Below, in pieces: positions 7,548 through 62,877 of a DNA stretch of 62,877 nt. Under the pieces are notes generated by a model. That model was not told where the DNA came from, did no database searches, and saw nothing but the letters and a program-made list of their open reading frames with translations. The DNA is from Lachnospiraceae bacterium. GTDB taxonomy: Bacteria > Bacillota > Clostridia > Lachnospirales > Lachnospiraceae. The position numbers and the translations under genes are program-made. The stretch spans positions 1 through 62,877 of the forward strand of contig JAFYGB010000012.1 of assembly GCA_017543445.1 (NCBI GenBank), read 5' to 3'. Numbering within the stretch: the first letter of the stretch is position 1; every line of letters begins with the position of its first letter.

Positions 7548-7610
7548 GTTTTGGCTATGGAATTTTTTGGGGAGAAGTGTAGATGAAAAGAAGACATATC
7601 ATACTGAATG
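7540..7610 (+). repeat. Upstream boundary of the tandem duplication, copy 1
   Basis: The stretch from GTTCCGTAGG (about 7540) through the ribosome site and start of the solute-binding gene is repeated almost exactly from about 10322. The repeat includes the last three codons of the small secreted protein gene, which marks the duplication breakpoint. Confidence 0.75.
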
Positions 7611-8989
7611 TTTTACTGATTATATTACTGGTATTGACATCTTGTTATGCATCAAATCCGTCAGGATCTTCAGACTCTTCGAAACCGGTGGCTTCCTCGT
7701 CGACTTCAGATGAAACGGTGAACTCTAAGGAAGATTTGCCGGACGATGATTCCAGACCGCGCATCGTTTGGGCGGTGAATTTTCACGCATATATTTCGGA
7801 GGACGTACAAGTTCAGATCCAAAACTTTTTGGATGAAAAGGGAATAGATTGCAAGATTGAGTTTACTCCGCTGATCATGGAGGGGGGAGCGGCATATGAG
7901 AAATGGCTTAATGGTCAAAAAGAAGCAGGGACTATGCCGGATATTTTGACGGGCTGCTTGTGGGAACATGGTGTACTGGATCTGGCTGCGTTTGTAAAGA
8001 AAGAATTATTGCCATTGAATAGTTACTTGGAGTCCGAGGCGGGCCAGGAACTGTATGATGCATATGCAGAAGTGGAGTGGAACAGAACTAAAGTTGATGG
8101 GGTGATTTATTCGATTCCGGTGCGGCAAAGACAATATCAAAACACGCAAGGTAGGTTTTATCTGTGTGTAAACGACGAGTATAAATCATTCTTCGATGCA
8201 GGCTTTGACGGAACTTATGCTTCTCTTAGAAAAATAGTAGGAGCCATTCCCGGTTCTCCGAAAATTGCTATGGTGCCATCCTTCGACATGAATTATGCCT
8301 ATTCATTTTATCAGACGCAGTTAATTCTTTATGCGACCTACTGTTGGGAGAGAGAGGAGTTCGTTGATTTGACTAAACAAAATGACTTTAAAGAACTCCT
8401 TTTGAACATTTACGCAGATTATCAGAGCGGGGTACTGGTCGATATAGAATCCGAAGAGCAGGTTAACGGAAATGCATGCGCCTATGTTGGTTTTTCCGGA
8501 GAGTTACGGGATTATTATGACATACCGGAGGACTACACAGAATATGTCTTAGCTCCGGAAATGTATCTTTCTGCTCCTGGAGCGGGTTCCTATGGAATTT
8601 CAGCCTTTTCGGGAAAAAAGGATCTCGCATTTCAGGTTCTCTCCGCATGCTATTCGGATCCGAAGATTGCGTCTCTGATTTTTTGGCGTACTGCGGACGA
8701 GGATAGGTGGAACGAGAGAACAAGGTTTTTGAAAACATGTGAGCCAAGCCCGCTTAACAATTTCATACCGGATATTACATTGGAAGAATGGGCAATAATA
8801 CGTTCATATAATAATGATCTAAATACCTTGGAGGGTGAGTTTTATCTTCAGCAGAGCGGGAACAGCGTGAAAATTCTCAATCCGAATTTTCCAAATGCGG
8901 TGGACCAGTTTTTTTCTTCTCCTAAAGACTATGGGACAGTTATAGAGAAAATCAGCGATCAGATCAGAAAATGGATCAATAAGAAATAA
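7583..8989 (+). CDS. Extracellular solute-binding lipoprotein (intact copy)
   Basis: A 468-aa lipoprotein (signal with VLTSC, Cys near residue 21; Ser-rich spacer to about 55) followed by a region resembling family 1 solute-binding proteins: KWLNGQKEAGTMPDIL and VDGVIYSIPVRQ are the typical hinge and strand segments. No permease or ATPase genes accompany it, so it may serve a remote transporter or act as a sensor. GGGGAG at 7571-7576 precedes the ATG. A close paralogue with a frameshift lies at 10367. The family assignment is moderate. Confidence 0.7.
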   Translation: MKRRHIILNVLLIILLVLTSCYASNPSGSSDSSKPVASSSTSDETVNSKEDLPDDDSRPRIVWAVNFHAYISEDVQVQIQNFLDEKGIDCKIEFTPLIMEGGAAYEKWLNGQKEAGTMPDILTGCLWEHGVLDLAAFVKKELLPLNSYLESEAGQELYDAYAEVEWNRTKVDGVIYSIPVRQRQYQNTQGRFYLCVNDEYKSFFDAGFDGTYASLRKIVGAIPGSPKIAMVPSFDMNYAYSFYQTQLILYATYCWEREEFVDLTKQNDFKELLLNIYADYQSGVLVDIESEEQVNGNACAYVGFSGELRDYYDIPEDYTEYVLAPEMYLSAPGAGSYGISAFSGKKDLAFQVLSACYSDPKIASLIFWRTADEDRWNERTRFLKTCEPSPLNNFIPDITLEEWAIIRSYNNDLNTLEGEFYLQQSGNSVKILNPNFPNAVDQFFSSPKDYGTVIEKISDQIRKWINKK

Positions 8990-10366: not shown

Positions 10367-11775
10367 ATGAAAAGAAGACATATCATCCTGAATGTTTTAC
10401 TGATTATATTACTGGTATTGACATCTTGTTATGCATCAAATCCGTCAGGGCCTTCGGACTCTTCGAAGCCGTTGGCTTCCTCGTCGACTTCAGATGAAAC
10501 GGTGAACTCAAAGGACGTTTTGCCGGCAGATGACTTAAGACCGCATATCGTTTGGGCAGTGAATATTCATGCAAATATCTCGGAGGATGCACAAGTTCAG
10601 ATCCAAAACTTTTTGGATGAAAAGGGAATAGATTGCAAGATTGAGTTTACTCCGCTGATCATGGAGGGGGGATCGGCATATGAGAAATGGCTTAATGGTC
10701 AAAAAGAAGCAGGAACTACGCCGGATATTCTGACGGGCTGTTTTTGGGAGCATGGGGTAGTGGATCTGGCTGCTTTTGTCAAGAAAGAATTATTACCTCT
10801 GAACAGTTACCTGGAGTCCGAGGCGGGTAAGGAACTGTATGATGCGTATGCAGAAGTGGAATGGAACAGAACTAGAGTTGATGGGGTGATTTATTCGATT
10901 CCGGTGCGGCATAGATCATATCAAAATACACAAGGCAGGATTTACCTATGTGTAAAAGATGAGTACAAGTCATTCTTTGATGCAGGCTTTGACGGGACAT
11001 ATGTTTCTCTTAGAAAAGTAAGAGAAACTATTCCGGGTTCCCCGAAGATTGCTATAGTGCCAAATTTTGGAATAAATATAGCCTCCTCCTTTTTTCAAAC
11101 CCAGATGGTTCTTAATGCTCCATACTGTTGGGACAGAAATGAAATAGTTGATTTGACGAGGAAAAAAGACTATAAAGAACTTCTTTTGGATATCTATTCT
11201 GATTATCAGAGTGGAGTACTTGTCGATGTAGGATCCATAGAACAGGTTGACGGAAGTGTATGTGCATATATTGGTTATTCAGGGGCAGGAGGGGGGTATT
11301 ATGACATACCGGAGGGTTATACAGAATATGTATTAGCTCCGGAAATGTATCTTTCTTCTCCCGGGGCTGGTTCCTATGGAATTCAGCCTTTTCGGGAAAA
11401 AAGGATCTCGCATTTCAGGTTCTCTCCGCATGCTATTCGGATCCGAAGATCGCGTCTCTGATTTTTTGGCGTACTGCGGACGAGGATAGGTGGAACGAGA
11501 GAACACGCTTCTTGAAAACATGTGAGCCAAGCCCTCTTAACAATTTCATACCGGATATTTCACAGGAGGAGTTCTTGATTCTTCAGTCGTATGATAATGA
11601 TCTTAATGCACTAGGACGTGAGTTTTATCTGCAGCAGAGCGGAAACAACGTGTATAGTCTCAATCCAAATTTTCCGGATGTAGTGGAACAGTTTTTTTCA
11701 TCGCCCAAAGATTACGAAGGTATTCTTGAGAAGGTCAATGAGCAACTTCAAGACTGGATCGATAAAAAACAGTAG
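10367..11775 (+). pseudogene. Frameshifted second copy of the solute-binding lipoprotein
   Basis: Paralogue of the gene at 7583, with the same signal peptide and near-identical sequence over most of its length. Where the intact copy reads GGAATTTCAG, this copy reads GGAATTCAG at about 11379-11386: one T is missing. The frame then shifts and terminates at 11461, while the original frame resumes and continues to the expected stop at 11775 (TCEPSPLNNF...). Restoring the base would give about 469 aa, close to 468 in the intact copy. A sequencing or assembly error in the T-run cannot be excluded. The homology extends about 45 bases upstream of the ATG. Confidence 0.85.
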
Positions 11776-13654: not shown

Positions 13655-14440
13655 TCACTGTTTATCGAACACGTATTCGTATGTCATTGGTTTCGCGGGA
13701 TCTCCGTTGTAGATGTCGAGGTGGCCGTTTTCGAGGGTTCCGGTGTAGTCGATGGTTCCGAGGAATTTCTCGGTCATCTTGAATTCGGTTCCGTTGATGG
13801 TCCATTCTTTGATTTTGATCTCGAGGTCGTCGCGGTAGGACATGCCGGTTCCGTCAGCGTTCAGAACGAGTCTGGCTTCTTTATCGGTTTCCTTCGTCTC
13901 CGAGCAGACCATCTTGATATAAAGGCGCTTATACTCGCCGGCCGCCGCCTGCATCTCAGGCGTCGCTTCCTTGACTTCCTTAACGGTCTTCTTAACTTCC
14001 GTCGGCATCTCGTCGATCTTTACGATCTGATAGTTGTCGAGGATCACGAGGGTATTGCCCGCGATCTCCGTCTTGCGGAAGGGATCCAGGACCTCACCGA
14101 AAACTTCAGCGTGCGAATTATCGCTCACGAACAGGTCATCGCCCTCCGTTTTCCACGCCCATTTACGCACCATGAAAAGATCGCCGTCGATCAGTTCGGC
14201 CTCGCCGGAAGCGACAAAAGCGTCGATCTCCTCCTGCGGCGTTCCCTCGGGGATCTTGACTTCAGACAGGACCTTCACAACGCCGCCATCTTCGAACATA
14301 AAGAGGGCGTTCTGCATCATCTTCAGGAAATCTCCATCGGGCCGCTCGGAAAGCTCCTCCGCCGTGATCCACTCCATTTCAAATGTCTCAGGGTTCATCC
14401 CACGAATCGATACCAGTCTCCATACACTACCAATATCCAT
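13655..14440 (-). CDS. Conserved-looking protein of unknown function
   Basis: A 261-aa protein without signal peptide or membrane segment, rich in Glu, Lys and Thr. The C-terminal half (LVLNADGTGMSY, FKMTEKFLGTIDYTGTLENG) has the beta-strand rhythm of lipocalin-like or META-type domains, but no family is recognised with confidence. GGAGGAAAC precedes the ATG and a promoter lies at 14502-14530. The product may be cytoplasmic. It is transcribed toward the xylanase gene, separated by 361 bases of repeats. Confidence 0.75.
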   Translation of the reverse strand: MDIGSVWRLVSIRGMNPETFEMEWITAEELSERPDGDFLKMMQNALFMFEDGGVVKVLSEVKIPEGTPQEEIDAFVASGEAELIDGDLFMVRKWAWKTEGDDLFVSDNSHAEVFGEVLDPFRKTEIAGNTLVILDNYQIVKIDEMPTEVKKTVKEVKEATPEMQAAAGEYKRLYIKMVCSETKETDKEARLVLNADGTGMSYRDDLEIKIKEWTINGTEFKMTEKFLGTIDYTGTLENGHLDIYNGDPAKPMTYEYVFDKQ

Positions 14441-14615: not shown

Positions 14616-15279
14616 TACGCGCAAAAACGAGGAAAGCAAGAAAATGCGCGTAAGGTCTCACCGCCCGGGACAGCAATCCTACGCGCAAAGTAGAGAAAAG
14701 CAAGAAAATGCGCGTAAGCGCGCACTGCCCGAGAGGATATTCCTACGCGCAAAAGCGAGAAAAACAAGATTATGCGCGTAAGCGCGCACCGCCTAGGGTT
14801 GCATCCTTACGCGCGAAAGCGAGAAAAGCAAGAAAATGCGCGTAAGCGCGCACCGCCTAGGGGTGCATCTTTACGCGCGAAAGCGAGAAAAGCAAGATCA
14901 TGCGCGTAAACGCGCACTGCCCGAGAGGATATTCCTACGCGCAAAAGCGAGAAAAACAAGATTATGCGCGTAAGCGCGCACTGCCTAGGGCTTCATTCCT
15001 ACGCGCAAAAGCGAGAAAAGCAAGATTATGCGCGTAAGCGCGCACTGCCCGGGATGATATTCCTACGCGCAAAACAGAGAAAAGCAAGATTATGCGCGTA
15101 AGCGCACACTGCCCGGGGCTTCATTCCTACGCGCAAAAGCGAGAAAAACAAGATCATGCGCGTAAGCGCGCACTGCCTAGGGCTTCACTCCTACGCGCAA
15201 AAGCGAGAAAAACAAGATTATGCGCGTAAGCAAGCACTGCCTAGGGGTGTATTCCTACGCGCAAAACAGAGAAAAGCAA
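14616..15279. repeat. 64-bp tandem array of inverted-repeat units (family A, locus 1)
   Basis: Eleven units start at 14616, 14680, 14744, 14808, 14872, 14936, 15000, 15064, 15128, 15192 and 15256, exactly 64 bases apart; the last is cut at about 15279. Each unit has TACGCGCA, a 21-base purine-rich spacer (AAAGCGAGAAAAACAAGAT type), TGCGCGTA, and a 27-base linker (AGCGCGCACTGCC... then CCGAGAGGATATTCC- or CTAGGGCTTCATTCC-type endings). Arms are almost invariant; linkers vary by unit. The array fills most of 14441-15394, which has no credible gene: ORFs across it are translations of the repeat. Confidence 0.95.
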
Positions 15280-15394: not shown

Positions 15395-16462
15395 ATGCGA
15401 TTTGTACATATAGCGGACGTCCACCTCGGCGCCATTCCGGATGGGAATAAGCCGTGGGCGACCGAGCGGGCGCGTGAACTCTGGGATACGTTCTCCGAGG
15501 TCATCGATGTCTGCAACGAGAAGAAAGCGGACCTGCTTCTGATCGCCGGGAACCTGTTCCACAGGCAGCCGCTGAAGCGCGAACTGAAGGAGGTCAATGC
15601 ACTCTTTGAGAAGCTTGAGAGGACGCGTGTAGTCCTCATGGCGGGCGACCGCGACTATCTTAAGGAGACATCTGCGTATCTCGATTTTACGTGGGATGAG
15701 AGCGTGCATTTCTTCACTTCGGCGACGCCGGAGAAGATGTATTTTGAGGATCTGGACTGTGAGATCTGGGGCATGAGTTATCATACACCGACCATCACGG
15801 AGCCTTTGTATGACTCGATTCCGCAGAAATCGCGTAAGGAAGTCCCTTCAGACAGTTACCGCATCTTGCTGGCGCATGGCGGCGAGGATGATCACATCCC
15901 GTTTCGTAAAGACCGCCTGATGGAGAAGGATTTCGATTACATTGCCCTCGGACACGAGCCCATCGCGCAGATGCGCGACCGCGACCGCATGGCGTATGCC
16001 GGAAGCCTCGAGCCGATCTCGGAGAATGAGCCCGGCGAGCACGGCTACATCATCGGCGAGATCACGGAGGAAGGAACGAGTTTCGAACTGATCCCGATCT
16101 CGCAGCGGCAGTACATCACCGTGCAGGTGCCGGTGGTTCGTGAGTCGACGACGCAGACCCTGGTCGATGCGGTGAAGAAGATCATCTACGAGCAGGGCGA
16201 CCAGAACCTGTACACACTGAACCTGGTCGGACGTTTTAACCCGCAGAAGCCCATCGACCTCGATGAACTCGAAAAAACGGGAAATATAGTCCGCATCAAT
16301 GATAAAACACAGGCGTATTATGACATCTTGAAGATCGCGCACGAGCACGACGGCGACCTGGTCGGCGAGTACCTCGAGGCGCTGCATAAGTTGCCGCCGA
16401 GCCCGCTGACGAATAAGGCGTTGTATTACGGACTGTCGGCGCTGCTGGCGGATCAGGAATAG
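15395..16462 (+). CDS. SbcD/YhaO-like metallophosphoesterase with altered metal motifs
   Basis: A 355-aa protein with the length and order of DNA-repair exonuclease subunit D (SbcD/YhaO type), paired with an SbcC/YhaN-like ATPase 12 bases downstream. The first metal motif is intact (DVHLG, Asp8 and His10) and so is His161 in LLAHGG. However, the GDxxD motif reads GNLFH (52-56), GNHD reads GDRD (84-87), and GHxH reads GHEP (186-189). Several metal ligands are thus replaced and nuclease activity may be weak or lost. The C-terminal 120 aa resemble the capping domain. GGGAGG precedes the ATG. Confidence 0.82.
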   Translation: MRFVHIADVHLGAIPDGNKPWATERARELWDTFSEVIDVCNEKKADLLLIAGNLFHRQPLKRELKEVNALFEKLERTRVVLMAGDRDYLKETSAYLDFTWDESVHFFTSATPEKMYFEDLDCEIWGMSYHTPTITEPLYDSIPQKSRKEVPSDSYRILLAHGGEDDHIPFRKDRLMEKDFDYIALGHEPIAQMRDRDRMAYAGSLEPISENEPGEHGYIIGEITEEGTSFELIPISQRQYITVQVPVVRESTTQTLVDAVKKIIYEQGDQNLYTLNLVGRFNPQKPIDLDELEKTGNIVRINDKTQAYYDILKIAHEHDGDLVGEYLEALHKLPPSPLTNKALYYGLSALLADQE

Positions 16463-16474
16463 GAGGGAGCCGGT

Positions 16475-18256
16475 ATGATCATTAACGAACTTACATTGGC
16501 CCACTTCGGAAAATTCCACGGCAAGGTCGTTAAATTCGACAACGGGCTGAACATCCTGCACGGCAAGAACGAAGCGGGAAAATCCACCATCCACACCTTT
16601 ATCTACTGTATGTTCTTTGGAATGGAGACGAAGCGGGGGACGACGGGACCGCAGAATCTGTACAAACAGTACGAGCCCTGGGAGGATCAGGGCGGCTACG
16701 GCGGCAGTCTGATCTTCACGTCGTTCGGCAAGCAGTATAAGATCGAGCGCAGCTTCCTGCGTCCGGATCCGTGGGTGAAACTCACGAACCTGACGGATAA
16801 TGTGGAAGTCATCCCACCGCAGGAGCACATCAATACATTGCTCGGGAACATGACCGAGACGGCCTTCCGCAACATGGTGAGTCTGGGGCAGATGAAGGCC
16901 ACGTTTGAAGAGGGCCTGGCGGATGAATTGAAGAACCACGTGGCGAGCTTAGGATCGTCGAAGAACGTCGAGATCGATATGGAGCATTCGCTGGAGACCT
17001 TGTATTCCAAGCGTGAAGCGATCGAGAAGAAGCGTGTCGAGGTCGCGGAGAACCAGCGGAAGAACCTGATGGAAGCGCTCGCGGAGTCGGACCGCCGCAT
17101 GGACGACCTGGCACATCGGGAGAAGGATCTCAAGCAGAAACTCGGAGAGGACCGTAAGCAGGAATACGATATGTTCCAGGAGCAGCGGACCTTCCGCAGC
17201 CAGACCGAAGAGGAACTTCGGGATATCAAGGACCAGATGCGCAGACTCGAGCATGAGCAGACGCGCTGGAAGAACGAGGCGGACTCCTGGTCGGGTAAGA
17301 CCGGACTGAAACTCGAGAAACTGGAGCAGGGTAAGAAACCGAAGTCCCTACGCGGCCTGATCTTAGCGCTGTACATTCTTTTGACGGCCTGCCTCGGCGG
17401 CGCGGTATTCTTCCTGTGCGACTACCTGATCTCGTATTTCCGCAGTGAAGATCCCCGTTTTGACTTTTCTATCATTCTGGGACCGTCCCTGTGCGGCGCG
17501 GTGCTGATCCTGCTGGTTTTGATCATTATGATCTCCCGTGGGGCACGTCGCAGACGTCGCGCGTACCGTATGTATGAGGAGCGCATGGCGTCCTACAAGG
17601 ATGCAAAGAGCTCCTACGAAGAATTGGCCGGACAACAGACCAGCCTCGGAGAGAAGATCTCCGACATCGCAGGCAGCGATTATATGAAGCTGCACGAGGC
17701 GAATAATGACCTGGAGAAGGAGATCCTGCGCTGCAGCTGGGAGCAGGAGCAGGAACAGCAGCACATGGACGACCTGAGCCGCGAATTGACGGTGATGGAA
17801 GAGATCTGTGCACGAAATGCTGCCTACTCCGTAGAGATCGGTGCCATCGATCTGGCCGTGGATACGGTGAAGAAAGTGGCAAAACAGATCCGCGAGTCCT
17901 TCGGCGACAAACTGAATAAGAAAGTCGGCGAGTACATGGCAGTCATTTCCGGCGGCCTGTACAGCGACATTATCATCGATGAGAATTTCGATATCTTCAT
18001 CCAGACGGAAGAGGAGCCCATCCCGGTATCGCAGCTGAGCCGCGGCACCATGGAGCAGGTGTACTTCTGCCTGCGTCTGGCGGCAGCGGACCTGATGTGG
18101 CCCGAGCTCAACCCGCCCATCATCCTGGACGATACCTTCGCCTACTATGATGATAAACGAACCTATGACACCCTTCTTTTGCTGCGTCACCTGCGTCGTC
18201 AGGTCATCATCCTGACCTGCCAGGGCCGCGAAAAAGAGTACCTGAAGGACATGTGA
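16475..18256 (+). CDS. SbcC/YhaN-like ATPase with central membrane segments
   Basis: A 593-aa SMC-type ATPase, shorter than YhaN or SbcC (about 960-1050 aa). Walker A is GKNEAGKST (30-38), the signature is QLSRGTMEQ (about 520) and Walker B IILDDTFAYYDD (about 550). Long charged coiled coils flank the middle. Where SbcC has a zinc hook, this protein has two hydrophobic segments (about 294-316 and 331-354) followed by RGARRRRRAYR, so the coil tip is predicted to sit in the membrane. It is co-transcribed with the SbcD-like gene. A role in DNA handling at the membrane is inference. Confidence 0.82.
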   Translation: MIINELTLAHFGKFHGKVVKFDNGLNILHGKNEAGKSTIHTFIYCMFFGMETKRGTTGPQNLYKQYEPWEDQGGYGGSLIFTSFGKQYKIERSFLRPDPWVKLTNLTDNVEVIPPQEHINTLLGNMTETAFRNMVSLGQMKATFEEGLADELKNHVASLGSSKNVEIDMEHSLETLYSKREAIEKKRVEVAENQRKNLMEALAESDRRMDDLAHREKDLKQKLGEDRKQEYDMFQEQRTFRSQTEEELRDIKDQMRRLEHEQTRWKNEADSWSGKTGLKLEKLEQGKKPKSLRGLILALYILLTACLGGAVFFLCDYLISYFRSEDPRFDFSIILGPSLCGAVLILLVLIIMISRGARRRRRAYRMYEERMASYKDAKSSYEELAGQQTSLGEKISDIAGSDYMKLHEANNDLEKEILRCSWEQEQEQQHMDDLSRELTVMEEICARNAAYSVEIGAIDLAVDTVKKVAKQIRESFGDKLNKKVGEYMAVISGGLYSDIIIDENFDIFIQTEEEPIPVSQLSRGTMEQVYFCLRLAAADLMWPELNPPIILDDTFAYYDDKRTYDTLLLLRHLRRQVIILTCQGREKEYLKDM

Positions 18257-20900: not shown

Positions 20901-22364
20901 ATGAAGCGTCAGCGCAGGATCGCGGTCGTCAACGATGTGACCGGCTTCGGACGGTGTTCCGTCACGGTCGCATTGCCCATATTATCCGCGATGCGGTTGG
21001 AAACATGTATCGTTCCGACGGCGGTGCTTTCGATGCATACTGCCTACCCGGAGTACATGCTCCACGACTTTACCCCGTACCTGCCCGCGTACATCGACTC
21101 GTGGGCGCAGAGGAATCTGACCTTTGACGGGATATTGACCGGATTTTTGGGATCGGAAGAGCAAATCGAGGATGTCGAGAGGTTCCTTATGACCTTCGGT
21201 GGAACGGAGGCTGAGCCGGGTGCGCGGCCGCGCATCGTGGTCGATCCGGTCATGGGAGATCATGGGAAGATCTATACATCCTACACCGAGCCGATGTGCA
21301 AAGCCATGCGCAGACTGATGCCGTACGCCGACATCGTAACGCCGAACGTGACCGAACTGTGCGAACTCACAGATGCTTCGTATGAAGAGGTCATGGCGGA
21401 GTTCTCGAAGGCGGGCGTGCAGGATCAGACTTGGAAAATGCTGTGCCGGAAGCTGGCCGATATGGGACCGAAGGTGGTCGTTGTGACGGGATTGCCGCAG
21501 GATGCGCAGATCCTGAACCTGGTCTACCACCGCACGGACGATACGCTGAACGTGATCGCGTCGCAGCGTGTCGGGATCGAGCGTTGCGGGACCGGCGACA
21601 TCTTTTCTTCGGTGCTGGCAGGCGCGTATGTGCATGGGGCGTCCGTCGAGGAGGCTGTGGCGCTCGCCGCCCGCTTCATAAGCGTGGCCGCCGAGACGAC
21701 ACAGAACTTTAACGTCGATCCGAAAGAGGGACTTTGCTTCGAAGAATGTCTCTCCATGCTGACAGAGATCGATCCGCAGCATTCGGAACTGCTGGATGTC
21801 CGTACACCGGAGGGTGAAGTCACCGGTATGGTCGTGACGCGCGAGGTCGCGCATCGCTACGGATATCTGCACGGAACGGTGCATCTGTGGATCTATCGGC
21901 TGTCGCAGGATGCGACCGGGGTGGATGTGCTCTTACAACGACGCAGCGAGAATAAGGAGTCCTATCCGGGCTGCTTAGATATCTCGAGTGCCGGCCACAT
22001 GAGCGCCGGACAGGTGCCGGACGAGGCGGTCCTTCGCGAGTTATCGGAAGAACTGGGGCTGACGCCTGCATTGTCCGATCTTAAGTTCTTAGGGACATTC
22101 ATGGGCTACAGTAGCGGACATTTTCACGGAAAAGTATTTCGTAACCATGAGCTGAGCTATGTTTACGTATACGAAAAGGACATGGATCCGAAGGATCTCA
22201 CACCCTCTCCGGAGGAAGTGAGCGAGGTCTGCTGGATCCCGGGAAGTGTCGTTACCGAGGCAGCGAAAAACCATGATCCGGGGTATTGTTTGTATGAAGA
22301 GGAATGGAAAATGGTGCTCAACGGCATCACAACCATCCGCAAACCATTGGGAGGTCAATCATGA
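20901..22364 (+). CDS. Pyridoxal/pyridoxamine kinase fused to a Nudix domain
   Basis: A 487-aa two-domain protein. Residues 1-290 are a PdxK/PdxY-type vitamin B6 kinase of the ribokinase superfamily: NDVTGFGRCS at 11-20, DPVMGD at 115-120, TPNVTE near 147-152 and GTGD at 230-233 with catalytic Asp233. Residues about 300-487 are a Nudix hydrolase of the IDI/YfcD-like group. Its Nudix box runs 365-387 (RELSEELGL intact) but the first Glu is Gln371. AAAAAGGAGG precedes the ATG; an in-frame extension to 20787 would overlap the promoter. Its stop overlaps the next start. Confidence 0.88.
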   Translation: MKRQRRIAVVNDVTGFGRCSVTVALPILSAMRLETCIVPTAVLSMHTAYPEYMLHDFTPYLPAYIDSWAQRNLTFDGILTGFLGSEEQIEDVERFLMTFGGTEAEPGARPRIVVDPVMGDHGKIYTSYTEPMCKAMRRLMPYADIVTPNVTELCELTDASYEEVMAEFSKAGVQDQTWKMLCRKLADMGPKVVVVTGLPQDAQILNLVYHRTDDTLNVIASQRVGIERCGTGDIFSSVLAGAYVHGASVEEAVALAARFISVAAETTQNFNVDPKEGLCFEECLSMLTEIDPQHSELLDVRTPEGEVTGMVVTREVAHRYGYLHGTVHLWIYRLSQDATGVDVLLQRRSENKESYPGCLDISSAGHMSAGQVPDEAVLRELSEELGLTPALSDLKFLGTFMGYSSGHFHGKVFRNHELSYVYVYEKDMDPKDLTPSPEEVSEVCWIPGSVVTEAAKNHDPGYCLYEEEWKMVLNGITTIRKPLGGQS

Positions 22365-23563
22365 CTAAAATCGACATTTTTTCCGGTTTTTTAGGTGCCG
22401 GAAAGACAACACTGATCAAAAAGCTTTTGAAGGAAGCCCTGCAGGGCCAGAAGATCGTACTCATCGAGAATGAGTTCGGCGAGATCGGCATCGACGGCGG
22501 CTTTTTGAAGGAGGCAGGTATTCAGATCACCGAGATGAACTCTGGTTGTATCTGCTGTTCGCTCGTCGGCGACTTCGGCGAAGCTTTGAAGAAGGTGTTG
22601 GATACGTATGCGCCGGAGCGCATCCTGATCGAGCCGTCCGGCGTCGGTAAGCTCTCCGACGTTATTTCGGCGGTCGGCGGCGTAGTTTCCCATCGTGAGG
22701 ATGTGGAACTGGGCGCGTTCGTGACCATCGTGGACGCGACGAAGGCGAAGATGTATATCAAGAACTTCGGCGAGTTCTTCAACAATCAGATCGAAAACGC
22801 GAAGACGATCATCCTGTCTCGTACGCAGAAGGTTTCCCAGGAGAAACTGGACGAGCTGATGGCGCTGCTTCGCGAGCACAATGCAGATGCGACCATCGTT
22901 ACCACGCCTTGGGATGAGATCGACGGTAAGGTCATCCTGTCCGCGATGCAGCCTGAAGCATCCATGGCAGAGGAGATGATGCGCCAGCTTCGTGAGGAGC
23001 ATGCGAAGACGCACCATCACCACCATCATGATGAGGAGTGCGACGATCCGGAGTGCGAATGCCATCATCACCATCATGACGACGACGATGATGATGACGA
23101 CGAGGAGTGCGAGTGCCACCATCATCACCACCACGATGATGACGATGACGACGAGGATGAGCATGAACATCACCATCACCATCATCACGATGACGACGAA
23201 GAGTGCGATGATCCGGAGTGTGAGTGCCATCACCACCACGATCATGATCATCACCACCATCATCATCATGGCCACGATGCAGACGAGGTATTTATCAGCT
23301 GGGGCGTTGAGACACCGAGAAAATACGACACGGCTGAACTTCAGTCCATGCTGGAAGCCCTCGACGATGCAGAGACCTATGGTCTGGTATTGCGTGCGAA
23401 GGGCATCGTGCCGGATGCAAACGGCGGCTGGTTGTTCTTCGACATGACTCCGGGCGAGGCAGAGGTCCGCACCGGCGCTGCCGACTATACCGGCAAACTG
23501 TGCGTCATCGGTTCCAAACTGAACGAAGAAGCACTGGCAACACTCTTTAAAGTGAATGCGTAA
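22361..23563 (+). CDS. CobW/COG0523 GTPase with a long His/Asp-rich metal-binding region
   Basis: A 400-aa G3E-family GTPase. Walker A is GFLGAGKTT (9-17), the invariant metal motif CICC is at 63-66 in MNSGCICCSL, and ILSRTQ replaces the usual NKxD. About residues 224-310 are a run of His, Asp, Glu and Cys with three CxC clusters (twice as CDDPECECHHH), a massive metal-binding or storage region. Residues 310-400 are the CobW C-terminal domain. The family inserts or chaperones Zn, Co or Ni; which metal is not visible. The ATG overlaps the upstream stop (ATGA), so it is coupled to the kinase-Nudix gene. Confidence 0.92.
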   Translation: MTKIDIFSGFLGAGKTTLIKKLLKEALQGQKIVLIENEFGEIGIDGGFLKEAGIQITEMNSGCICCSLVGDFGEALKKVLDTYAPERILIEPSGVGKLSDVISAVGGVVSHREDVELGAFVTIVDATKAKMYIKNFGEFFNNQIENAKTIILSRTQKVSQEKLDELMALLREHNADATIVTTPWDEIDGKVILSAMQPEASMAEEMMRQLREEHAKTHHHHHHDEECDDPECECHHHHHDDDDDDDDEECECHHHHHHDDDDDDEDEHEHHHHHHHDDDEECDDPECECHHHHDHDHHHHHHHGHDADEVFISWGVETPRKYDTAELQSMLEALDDAETYGLVLRAKGIVPDANGGWLFFDMTPGEAEVRTGAADYTGKLCVIGSKLNEEALATLFKVNA

Positions 23564-29230: not shown

Positions 29231-30421
29231 ATGGTAACTGTGTTTTTGATCGCACCGTATGTTTTGGTGCACTATCATATTTTACGCTGGTTTTTATCCT
29301 GGCTGGGTGCCGTACATCCGGTCTTTAAGCAGAAGAAGGTCTTCATCCCGATCTGCGTTGTCTATACTTACCTGATCCTGAGCCTCGGCATCGCGATCCT
29401 GATGCCGGACGGCATGGCAGAGCGCGCGATCCGCATCATGGGTAATTACGCGATGGGATTTTCCCTGTACATCGCCATGTCGATCGCGGTCGCGGATGTG
29501 ATCCATCTGATCCGCAAGTGGTGGCTCAAGAAATACAACAAAACAGCCTCCAAACGCTTCTTCATCATTTCCGGCGCGATCACGTTGATCGTCATTTCCA
29601 TCGTCGGTGTTTATGGCATCATCAATGCTCGCATCATCCGCCGTACGGCGTATGAGATCACCGTGCCGAAGGTAGTGGCCGGAGTCGCTTCCCTGAAAGT
29701 CATCCTGATCGCGGACCTGCACATGGGTTACAGCATCGGTGTGGACATGATCGCCGATATGGTCAATAAGATCAATCAGGAGGACGCGGATCTTATCATC
29801 CTCGCCGGCGATATCTACGATAATTCGTACGATGCGTTGGAAGATCCGGACCGTCTGGCAGAGCTCCTCGCGAGCATGAAGAGTACCTACGGTACCTATG
29901 CGTGCTATGGAAATCACGATGTGGACGAAACGGTGTTCGTCGGTTTTACTTTCCGTGTTACGGAGAAACCGGTCGCCGATCCCCGCATGGAGGATTTCCT
30001 GAAAGCATCGAAGATCACTTTGCTTCGTGATGAATACGTTCTGATCGATGATAAGTTCTATATTTACGGAAGACCGGATGCATCGAGACCCGGTGAGGGC
30101 ATCGACGTACGTAAGACTCCGGAAGAGACGATGCAGGGCCTCGACCTTTCGAAGCCGGTCATCATGATCGACCACCAGCCGAAGCAGCTGAACGAACTCG
30201 CCGCTGCTGGTGTGGATGTGGATCTTTGCGGTCATACACACGACGGACAGATGTTCCCCGGGAACGTGCTTACCTGGCTTTTGTGGGATAACTCCTACGG
30301 CTATGAGCAGTTTGGTAACATGCACAACATCGTTACTTCCGGCGTCGGCGTTTACGGACCGTTCATGCGTGTAGGCACGAAGGCAGAGTATTGCCCGATC
30401 ACGATTCGTTTTGCACAGTGA
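29231..30421 (+). CDS. Membrane metallophosphoesterase (YkuE-like)
   Basis: A 396-aa protein with about four N-terminal membrane segments (to about residue 135) and a calcineurin-like phosphoesterase domain. All metal motifs are present: DLHMG, GDIYD, GNHDVD, DHQP and GHTHDGQ. The active site should face outside. YkuE-type enzymes act on lipid-linked or cell-envelope phosphoesters; the substrate here is unknown. It follows aspartate kinase by 54 bases and ends at a hairpin. Confidence 0.9.
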   Translation: MVTVFLIAPYVLVHYHILRWFLSWLGAVHPVFKQKKVFIPICVVYTYLILSLGIAILMPDGMAERAIRIMGNYAMGFSLYIAMSIAVADVIHLIRKWWLKKYNKTASKRFFIISGAITLIVISIVGVYGIINARIIRRTAYEITVPKVVAGVASLKVILIADLHMGYSIGVDMIADMVNKINQEDADLIILAGDIYDNSYDALEDPDRLAELLASMKSTYGTYACYGNHDVDETVFVGFTFRVTEKPVADPRMEDFLKASKITLLRDEYVLIDDKFYIYGRPDASRPGEGIDVRKTPEETMQGLDLSKPVIMIDHQPKQLNELAAAGVDVDLCGHTHDGQMFPGNVLTWLLWDNSYGYEQFGNMHNIVTSGVGVYGPFMRVGTKAEYCPITIRFAQ

Positions 30422-40004: not shown

Positions 40005-40416
40005 GTACCTAAGGGGAGGGGGAGAGCCCCGTTTAGGTACGAGTAGTGCCTCCGGAGCATTCGTCGGAACCAAGCTTTTGTACCCTGATAGTGGGATTTG
40101 ACGCGATTAGGGTACAGTTTGGATGCGGGCGCGACCTTCGAAAAAAGCAATTTGTACCCTAGCGGAAGGTTTTGGCATCGTTTAGGGTACGATTTGAAAG
40201 CAGGTGCAGCTTATGAAGACAAGCTTTCCGTACCCTAACGGAGGGTTCTGACCTCGCTTAGGGTACAAATTGAATTCAAGCGCCTTCTCCGGGAACGAGA
40301 ATTCGTACCCTAATGGAGTAGTTTGATCTTGTTTAGGGTACTAATTGAATTCAAGCACCTCCTGTGGGGACAAACTTCTGTACCCTAGAAGAGGCTCTCG
40401 CACCGCTTTGGGGTAC
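40005..40416. repeat. About 75-bp tandem array of inverted-repeat units (family B)
   Basis: Six units begin at 40005, 40080, 40154, 40230, 40305 and 40380 (spacing 74-76). Each carries GTACCCTA, about 22 bases, then TAGGGTAC (GTACCT/AGGTAC in the first), followed by a 38-40-base linker with AATTGAATTCAAGC in the third and fourth. Arms are conserved, spacers diverge. It fills most of the 845-base gap between 39783 and 40629, which has no credible gene; the ORF extension from 40434 lacks a ribosome site. Confidence 0.92.
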
Positions 40417-62690: not shown

Positions 62691-62877
62691 TACGCGCAAA
62701 ATGAAGATTTCCGCAGAATTGCGCGTAGGATAAGTGTACCGGACGAGTGTTCCCTACGCGCAAAAGGAAGATTTTCGCAGAATTGCGCGTAAGAAAAGCG
62801 CCTGGGTTCGGTCGACTCTACGCGCAAAAGGAAGATTTTCGAGAAACTGCGCGTAGGAAAAGCGCATCGGGCGAGTG
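62691..62877. repeat. 64-bp inverted-repeat array (family A, locus 2), runs off window
   Basis: Units start at 62691, 62755 and 62819, exactly 64 bases apart. Each has TACGCGCA, a 21-base spacer (AAAGGAAGATTTTCGCAGAAT type), TGCGCGTA and a 27-base linker. Arms equal those at 14616-15279; spacer and linker sequence differ. The right end is cut by the window. Confidence 0.93.

Follow-up and report, generated by a model that had tools for sequence, protein, structure and literature searches.

Tandem dyad sites for a DNA-binding protein make up the ParB/SopB centromere arrays, such as sopC. A different pairing of protein and repeat is that of the RAYT genes, which, according to one study, are flanked by their own palindromic REP repeats, with stated coevolution of gene and repeat, dispersed repeat copies, and RAYT gene presence that goes with REP abundance (PMC2817692). 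Long sites are also recognised by the EDxHD homing endonuclease I-Bth0305I, reported to dimerise on a target of nearly 60 bp (PMC3943268). Here we analyse a stretch of 62,877 nucleotides (the window) from a Lachnospiraceae bacterium (GenBank assembly GCA_017543445.1, contig JAFYGB010000012.1), which carries at 14616..15279 a strictly phased array of inverted-repeat units. This array is probably one of the dispersed binding arrays that are cognate to a Lachnospiraceae family of predicted nucleases, and our comparisons point to a partnership between these nucleases and DNA repeats of their own. That reading builds on a gene-array association, a common geometry, arms shared in several families and array decay after one gene loss, all of them read from sequence.

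The original prediction had described eleven unit starts exactly 64 bp apart, and they are present on the forward strand from 14616 to 15256 with zero indels. Its unit anatomy is correct for the ten complete dyad units (14616..15228), each composed of a first arm TACGCGCA/G, a 21-bp loop, a second arm TGCGCGTA and a 27-bp linker (8-21-8-27), and incorrect for the eleventh, a half unit (15256..15279, forward strand) that has the first arm and the start of the loop and lacks the second arm. The first arm reads TACGCGCG instead of TACGCGCA in two of the ten complete units (14808 and 14872). A/G-rich loops and recurring linker variants, also noted previously, are evident in the unit alignment. Exact matches to the pattern TACGCGCA-N15..35-TGCGCGTA number 11 in the window, eight at this array and three at 62691-62855, and none in the shuffles (0/100). 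When the window was scanned blind for at least three recurrent inverted 7-mer pairs, exactly three arrays were returned, at 14616, 40005 and 62691, the last two of which were absent from the earlier description. The second TACGCG array (62691..62877, forward strand) lies downstream of an mgtE-like gene and is interrupted by the contig end; its 8-21-8-27 geometry, arms and period are those of the array at 14616, and its loops and linkers are different. The third (about 40005..40416, forward strand) has arms GTACCCTA, with GTACCTAA in its first unit, separated by N20-21 at a period of about 75 bp; its pattern is GTACCCTA-N21-TAGGGTAC, with steps of 74-76 bp. As a separate observation, the window at 62691-62877 and another contig of the same genome (G000:C57, 10781-11157) both break off within arrays whose loops are alike and oppositely oriented. 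The arrays therefore probably broke the assembly, and the two contigs may be neighbours.

The source genome (2.64 Mb, 83 contigs) contains 29 exact TACGCG units. Across the seven TACGCG stretches analysed there, 33 spacings are exactly 64 bp and one is 129 bp, the latter coinciding with a unit that has a 22-bp loop. A search of the clade for the arm-spacer-arm pattern, which had been proposed as a check, found exact units in 6/6 genomes of the genus (5 to 63 each), with multi-unit arrays, among the matches listed, in the metagenome-assembled genomes (MAGs) RGIG7973, RGIG7558, RGIG8251 and UBA1201. The strict tandem pattern was found in 3/397 genomes of the family, all of the source genus, and the relaxed pattern in 4/397, the fourth having a single site. 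Arrays were found in two further Lachnospiraceae, RM5 (spacings 11 x 64, 5 x 63, 4 x 75 and 1 x 74 bp) and RUI372 (19 x 63, 10 x 64 and 1 x 65 bp); the long linkers of RM5 exceed the others by 11 bp, or about one helical turn. The array hosts are gut and rumen Lachnospiraceae, and a search of viral contigs with the TACGCG pattern returned single matches only. The dispersed TACGCG arrays are intergenic, beside ordinary genes of varied kind, and coding repeats were rejected as an explanation because the arrays sit between genes. At two RM5 loci (L258, L259) arrays adjoin series of small lipoprotein-like genes that are paralogs of one another (about 39-96% identity).

Only one gene family is common to the array flanks of the source genus (g1) and RM5, that of a 265-aa PD-(D/E)XK-fold nuclease, and in 5/5 cases the array is upstream of the nuclease gene. 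The RM5 and RUI372 flanks have in common one weak pair, L253 and L264 (27% identity, E-value 1e-9), which we take to be a common enzyme family; genus g1 and RUI372 array flanks have zero gene families in common. In the nuclease, of about 265 aa, an N-terminal helix, beta strands and a long helix precede a C-terminal domain with the fold and the acidic active-site motifs of the PD-(D/E)XK superfamily, hence a predicted nuclease. For this family neither Pfam nor NCBIfam yielded a match above cut-off, and no transposase family was matched in Pfam. A sequence search of solved structures gave unconvincing best E-values of 0.68 and 0.17. Homologs were found in 9/10 genome handles searched (two of these being apparently one genome), with 4-7 per genome in the six genomes of the genus. 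Samples of wider scope gave a match in 25/60 genomes of the family, some being fragments or parts of large frames, and, at E<=1e-25, in 4/199 genomes of the phylum, two of these in the family and the other two as parts of frames 656 and 1218 aa long.

Tandem Repeats Finder (TRF) detects tandem repeats of 40-130 bp within 1 kb upstream of the homologs at 22/26 loci from the genus, RM5 and RUG13328, and in other genera at 15/28. By this lenient measure 37/54 loci have an array upstream, mostly with arms other than TACGCG, versus 8/54 downstream and 8/193 for control genes (Fisher 3.6e-23, a value that treats related loci as independent), and one of the eight control matches is the RM5 TTACTAG array, which has the arms of the RM5 paralog L317. 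A strict blind detector found arrays upstream at 23/54 loci, downstream at 5/54, at 1/193 control genes (the same TTACTAG array) and in 0/1080 Markov sequences. The 193 control genes come mostly from regions fetched for arrays, 28 genes with a known upstream array having been excluded. The 26 loci are the 30 located of 42 matches minus three duplicates (G402 is apparently G005) and the fragment L315; the 28 are the 30 located of 45 matches minus two repeats of own-genome loci, and among them are two fragments (L351, L352) and a domain located inside a frame of 1237 aa (L353). Seven homolog loci of a further genome, G211, were tested separately from the 54. Arrays with similar arms stand on both sides of the nuclease gene, in a cassette-like arrangement, at L312, L316 and L322. 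Eleven relatives on viral contigs (L359-L369), 714-1129 aa in length, also contain the C-terminal nuclease domain of the family, and one unannotated 4.2-kb 'phage' record contains a nearly full-length homolog with no detected array. Plasmid matches covered 26-46% of the query, in features annotated as AAA family ATPase. We rejected a phage origin, as the viral contigs gave single pattern matches and the domain within larger proteins.

Nuclease paralogs that are about 30-38% identical differ in the arms of their arrays, which include TACGGCTG, GCGAACA, GGCTAACA, GTACCTAA, TTACTAG, TACGACAT, GCAGCAA and others (the arms of L307, L309, L314, L319 and L325 were read by eye). In the proposed pairing, the owner of the TACGCG arms in the source genome is the gene at G000:C54. 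Several arm families recur away from their genes. Exact units with the GCGAACA arms of the C66 gene number 13, on five contigs of the source genome: three lie by the gene itself, C63 and C69 carry arrays, and C33 and C44 carry single units. The paralog on contig C60 (L311) has upstream arms GTACCTAA at a period of 96 bp, and similar GTACC(C)TA arms are found in the window and on C55 (about 29726-29950), with differing periods. From this arm resemblance we infer that the third window array (40005..40416) belongs to the C60 paralog; exact units with the GTACCCTA arms occur in 1/6 genomes of the genus. TTACTAG arms in RM5 and TACCTGC arms in G211 (genus g207) are likewise present in arrays elsewhere. 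A blind scan of 400 kb of G211 returned four arrays, three TACCTGC and one TTAGCCT, and none in the Markov control; 4/4 use arms found beside G211 homologs: the TTAGCCT array is itself the upstream array of one homolog, and on a different contig TACCTGC follows a homolog at about 0.8 kb downstream.

The geometry is shared by arrays with unlike arms. Among strictly detected arrays, 22/23 have one of their two arm-to-arm distances within 28-32 bp, a rule that allows each array two chances and counts some orthologs among the 23. The periods of 35 arrays form groups with means of 52.6 (14 arrays), 62.9 (8), 73.7 (11) and 95.0 bp (2), near 5, 6, 7 and 9 helical turns, and at 10.5 bp their resultant length is 0.89 with a phase of 0.14 bp, which 0/20000 uniform random period sets equalled. 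These periods were hand-picked, one per arm family by the author's judgement, and since related loci are included the counts are not independent. Included are a few arrays that lie 0.5-0.85 kb away from the gene or on its downstream side; excluded are further tandem repeats of the same loci (for example L304 66, L306 63, L307 50, L317 42 and 63, L326 54, L327 51, L339 47 and L386 53), the RM5 and RUI372 variants, and period multiples. The loop is 21 bp in nearly all TACGCG units, a few having 20 or 22. Loop and period are nearly fixed across loci, species and RM5/RUI372 while the sequence drifts, which supports two proposals of the original prediction, that spacing is selected and that the units could be an array of binding sites; both are also backed by the one-turn-longer RM5 linkers and the near whole-turn periods of the 35 arrays.

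One genome of the genus appears to have lost the owner of the TACGCG arms. In RUG508 (G005) only the last 43-50 codons of the ortholog are left, next to what remains of an array, and the gene downstream of it, read from sequence, is still in place. This genome has 5 exact TACGCG units versus 29-63 in its five siblings, and its 14616 locus retains a single canonical unit, another whose loop has 12 bp, and half-sites. The arms persist there; the phase does not. Other nuclease paralogs are kept in RUG508.

Several observations weigh against a nuclease-array partnership, or against parts of it. RUG508 is a single MAG, 88% complete. RUI372 (G401) has 16 TACGCG-N25-CGCGTA sites, mostly in arrays, and no nuclease homolog was found in it even at E<=1, an empty result that carries no weight by itself. 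TRF detects no upstream array at 17/54 homolog loci, of which 13 belong to other genera (some array-less loci are fragments or lie within a large frame, L351-L353). In G211 an upstream array accompanies 2/7 homologs and none was detected at the other five, and a partial fourth homolog of the source genome (L383) has none. L339, with distances of 26 and 38 bp, is the sole exception to the 28-32 bp rule. For the N-terminus, two comparisons favour a role in arm choice: L307 and L308 are 93% identical in the nuclease domain and 56% in the beta region, with arms AGACTGCC and TACGGCTG, and L325 and L319 are 96% identical in the nuclease domain and 38% in the beta region, with different arms. That the N-terminus reads the arm is at most suggested, because L304 and L308 share arms and yet have a beta region 52% identical, no more so than L304 and L307, whose arms differ. 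An N-terminal model (pLDDT, predicted local distance difference test, 90.7; three sequences) gave no Foldseek match below E 0.19. In a second fold search the matches were for the most part chains of long helices (Rad50 hook 8.6, prefoldin about 8). An integrase arm-binding domain, which had been considered, is not claimed for the N-terminus, since the fold searches gave no convincing relative.

Could the regularity be no more than duplication history? Slippage or unequal exchange would leave a neutral satellite whose copy number varies, as it does here, and whose units within a locus are alike, as they are in the source genome (identity of arms 0.93, loops 0.78, linkers 0.61). Between loci, however, the arms remain at 0.93 while loops fall to 0.37 and linkers to 0.33 (arm identity is partly by construction, the units having been detected through their arms), and arrays whose arms are unlike still keep both the loop length and near whole-turn periods, so that we consider a neutral satellite very improbable. 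The original prediction had offered small structured RNAs as another possibility. Small structured or processed RNAs, each with an 8-bp stem and a 21-nt loop, would suit the inverted-repeat arms and the purine-rich loops in one orientation, and are nevertheless hardly credible. Searches of the window for tRNA, tmRNA and Rfam RNAs found none, the inner arm bases are complementary in 105/158 cases versus 102.5 expected if they were independent, and the RM5 linkers differ by about one helical turn, which is not an RNA requirement. Arms without covariation make a hairpin RNA unlikely; stems would covary, so variation without pairing fits independent protein half-sites.

If the arms are protein sites, the protein might be an unrelated DNA-architecture or segregation factor of the ParB/SopB kind, with the nuclease genes merely behind, or regulated by, some arrays. 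Tandem dyads at whole-turn periods would suit such a protein, the dispersed arrays adjoin ordinary genes, and the RUI372 arrays have no detected nuclease. Against this, the arms are paralog-specific and gene-side arms recur elsewhere in the same genome in at least four families (TACGCG, GCGAACA, TTACTAG and TACCTGC); one general protein could hardly read every one of these. RUG508, having lost the nuclease, has few units and these are out of phase. On these grounds we judge this explanation unlikely. No ParB-type gene was noticed beside the arrays, where most neighbours were read for their first 45-50 residues and few were searched. A selfish homing-like or REP/RAYT-like pair, in which putative cutting at or near the arms and subsequent repair would copy or expand arrays with no host benefit, is possible, if on the doubtful side. 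It is a sub-case that overlaps the cognate nuclease array and concerns why such arrays exist rather than what they are. Loci that share arms share little loop or linker sequence, so any copying between loci is not recent.

For the cognate nuclease array, we propose the following model. Each nuclease, as a dimer, would bind two arms 28-32 bp apart, its N-terminus reading the arm, and since the unit periods are nearly whole helical turns, neighbouring dimers would share one face of the DNA. Each paralog would have its own arm sequence, common to the array upstream of its gene and to arrays elsewhere, and the upstream array may serve autoregulation. Recombination induced by the nuclease may maintain the arrays by adding or removing whole units. 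In its broadest form, a homing-endonuclease-like protein with an exchangeable DNA-reading N-terminus would write, maintain and be regulated by its own phased arrays, with several orthogonal pairs per chromosome forming a new class of system; we hold this form tentatively, as quite conceivable. Were the pairing true, Lachnospiraceae chromosomes would hold several orthogonal, addressable sets of sites, a small nuclease being the possible reader of each set, and a protein family without a Pfam or NCBIfam match above cut-off would provide a second, independent enzyme-plus-repeat solution beside RAYT/REP. The pairing would also explain intergenic repeats at which contigs of gut genomes break, and the exchangeable N-termini with matched arms would be a natural set from which to learn a DNA-recognition code.

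The divergent flanking genes that had been described for the array at 14616 are present: on the reverse strand a 261-aa gene (13655..14440), for which no Pfam family was found at E<=0.1, and on the forward strand an SbcD-like calcineurin phosphoesterase gene (15395..16462), followed by an AAA ATPase gene (SbcC/YhaN-like; 16475..18256, forward strand). All three are neighbours only, the SbcD-like gene being useful as a synteny anchor across species. A link to the SbcCD-like pair was not upheld, and a functional tie to the SbcD/AAA genes was rejected, because other arrays adjoin other genes. What recurs as a partner is another nuclease gene, unlinked to this pair. Unit number at this locus, a comparison that had been recommended, is 10 here, 10 in RGIG8251, 12 in UBA1201 (exact hexamers; two units have 20-bp loops), 7 in RGIG7558 and 5 in RGIG7973. 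Growth by whole units, as envisaged earlier, agrees with the whole-unit gain and loss seen in these five species, the 64-bp step being nearly always kept. In RGIG7558 (L082, 1-870) the same intergenic stretch contains repeats with ACGACAT/ATGTCGT arms and then seven TACGCG units; ACGACAT/ATGTCGT arms are also found beside the RUG508 paralog L322. Elsewhere in the window, 7583-8989 and 10367-11775 are closely similar genes with the look of extracellular binding proteins, the second comprising two open frames, and 22304-23563 encodes a protein with a GTPase-like start and long His/Asp-rich repeats, by eye perhaps metal-binding.

No description of such arrays or of the gene family was found in open-licence texts, where 'PDC-S68' also gave no match, so that 'new' here means not found in the open-licence literature, to which the search was confined. 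The arrays described here resemble CRISPR in a period of about 64 bp; in them, however, the constant parts are split arms, and the loops and linkers are locus-specific and recurring rather than unique spacers. A CRISPR-like array was rejected because the parts between the arms recur. Unlike ParB/SopB arrays such as sopC, there are many arrays at many loci, with several arm families per genome and a nuclease-like associated protein. The C-terminal nuclease domain is shared with the PADLOC candidate defence proteins PDC-S68 (E about 1e-27), whose models span about 1200 positions, whereas the protein described here has 265 aa, another N-terminus and an upstream array. The EDxHD homing endonucleases provide the closest match to the catalytic fold and likewise join a nuclease domain to a separate part. 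Here, in contrast, an intron, an intein or insertion into a target gene was not seen, and the gene lies beside tandem arrays; the I-Bth0305I dimer is nonetheless a useful precedent for how long dyads might be bound. The closest logic is that of REP/RAYT, with which the present system has in common a gene accompanied by its own repeats and dispersed cognate repeats, the arrays here being mainly on the upstream side only. The RAYT protein is an IS200/IS605-type transposase, whereas ours has a PD-(D/E)XK nuclease fold; the present unit pairs 8-bp arms across a loop of about 21 bp and recurs in tandem with whole-turn periods; and REP repeats usually exceed 100 per genome, compared with 5-63 exact TACGCG units in the six genomes of the genus. 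As enzyme class, unit architecture and copy number all differ, these arrays and their predicted nucleases are not a member of REP/RAYT, close as the analogy is.
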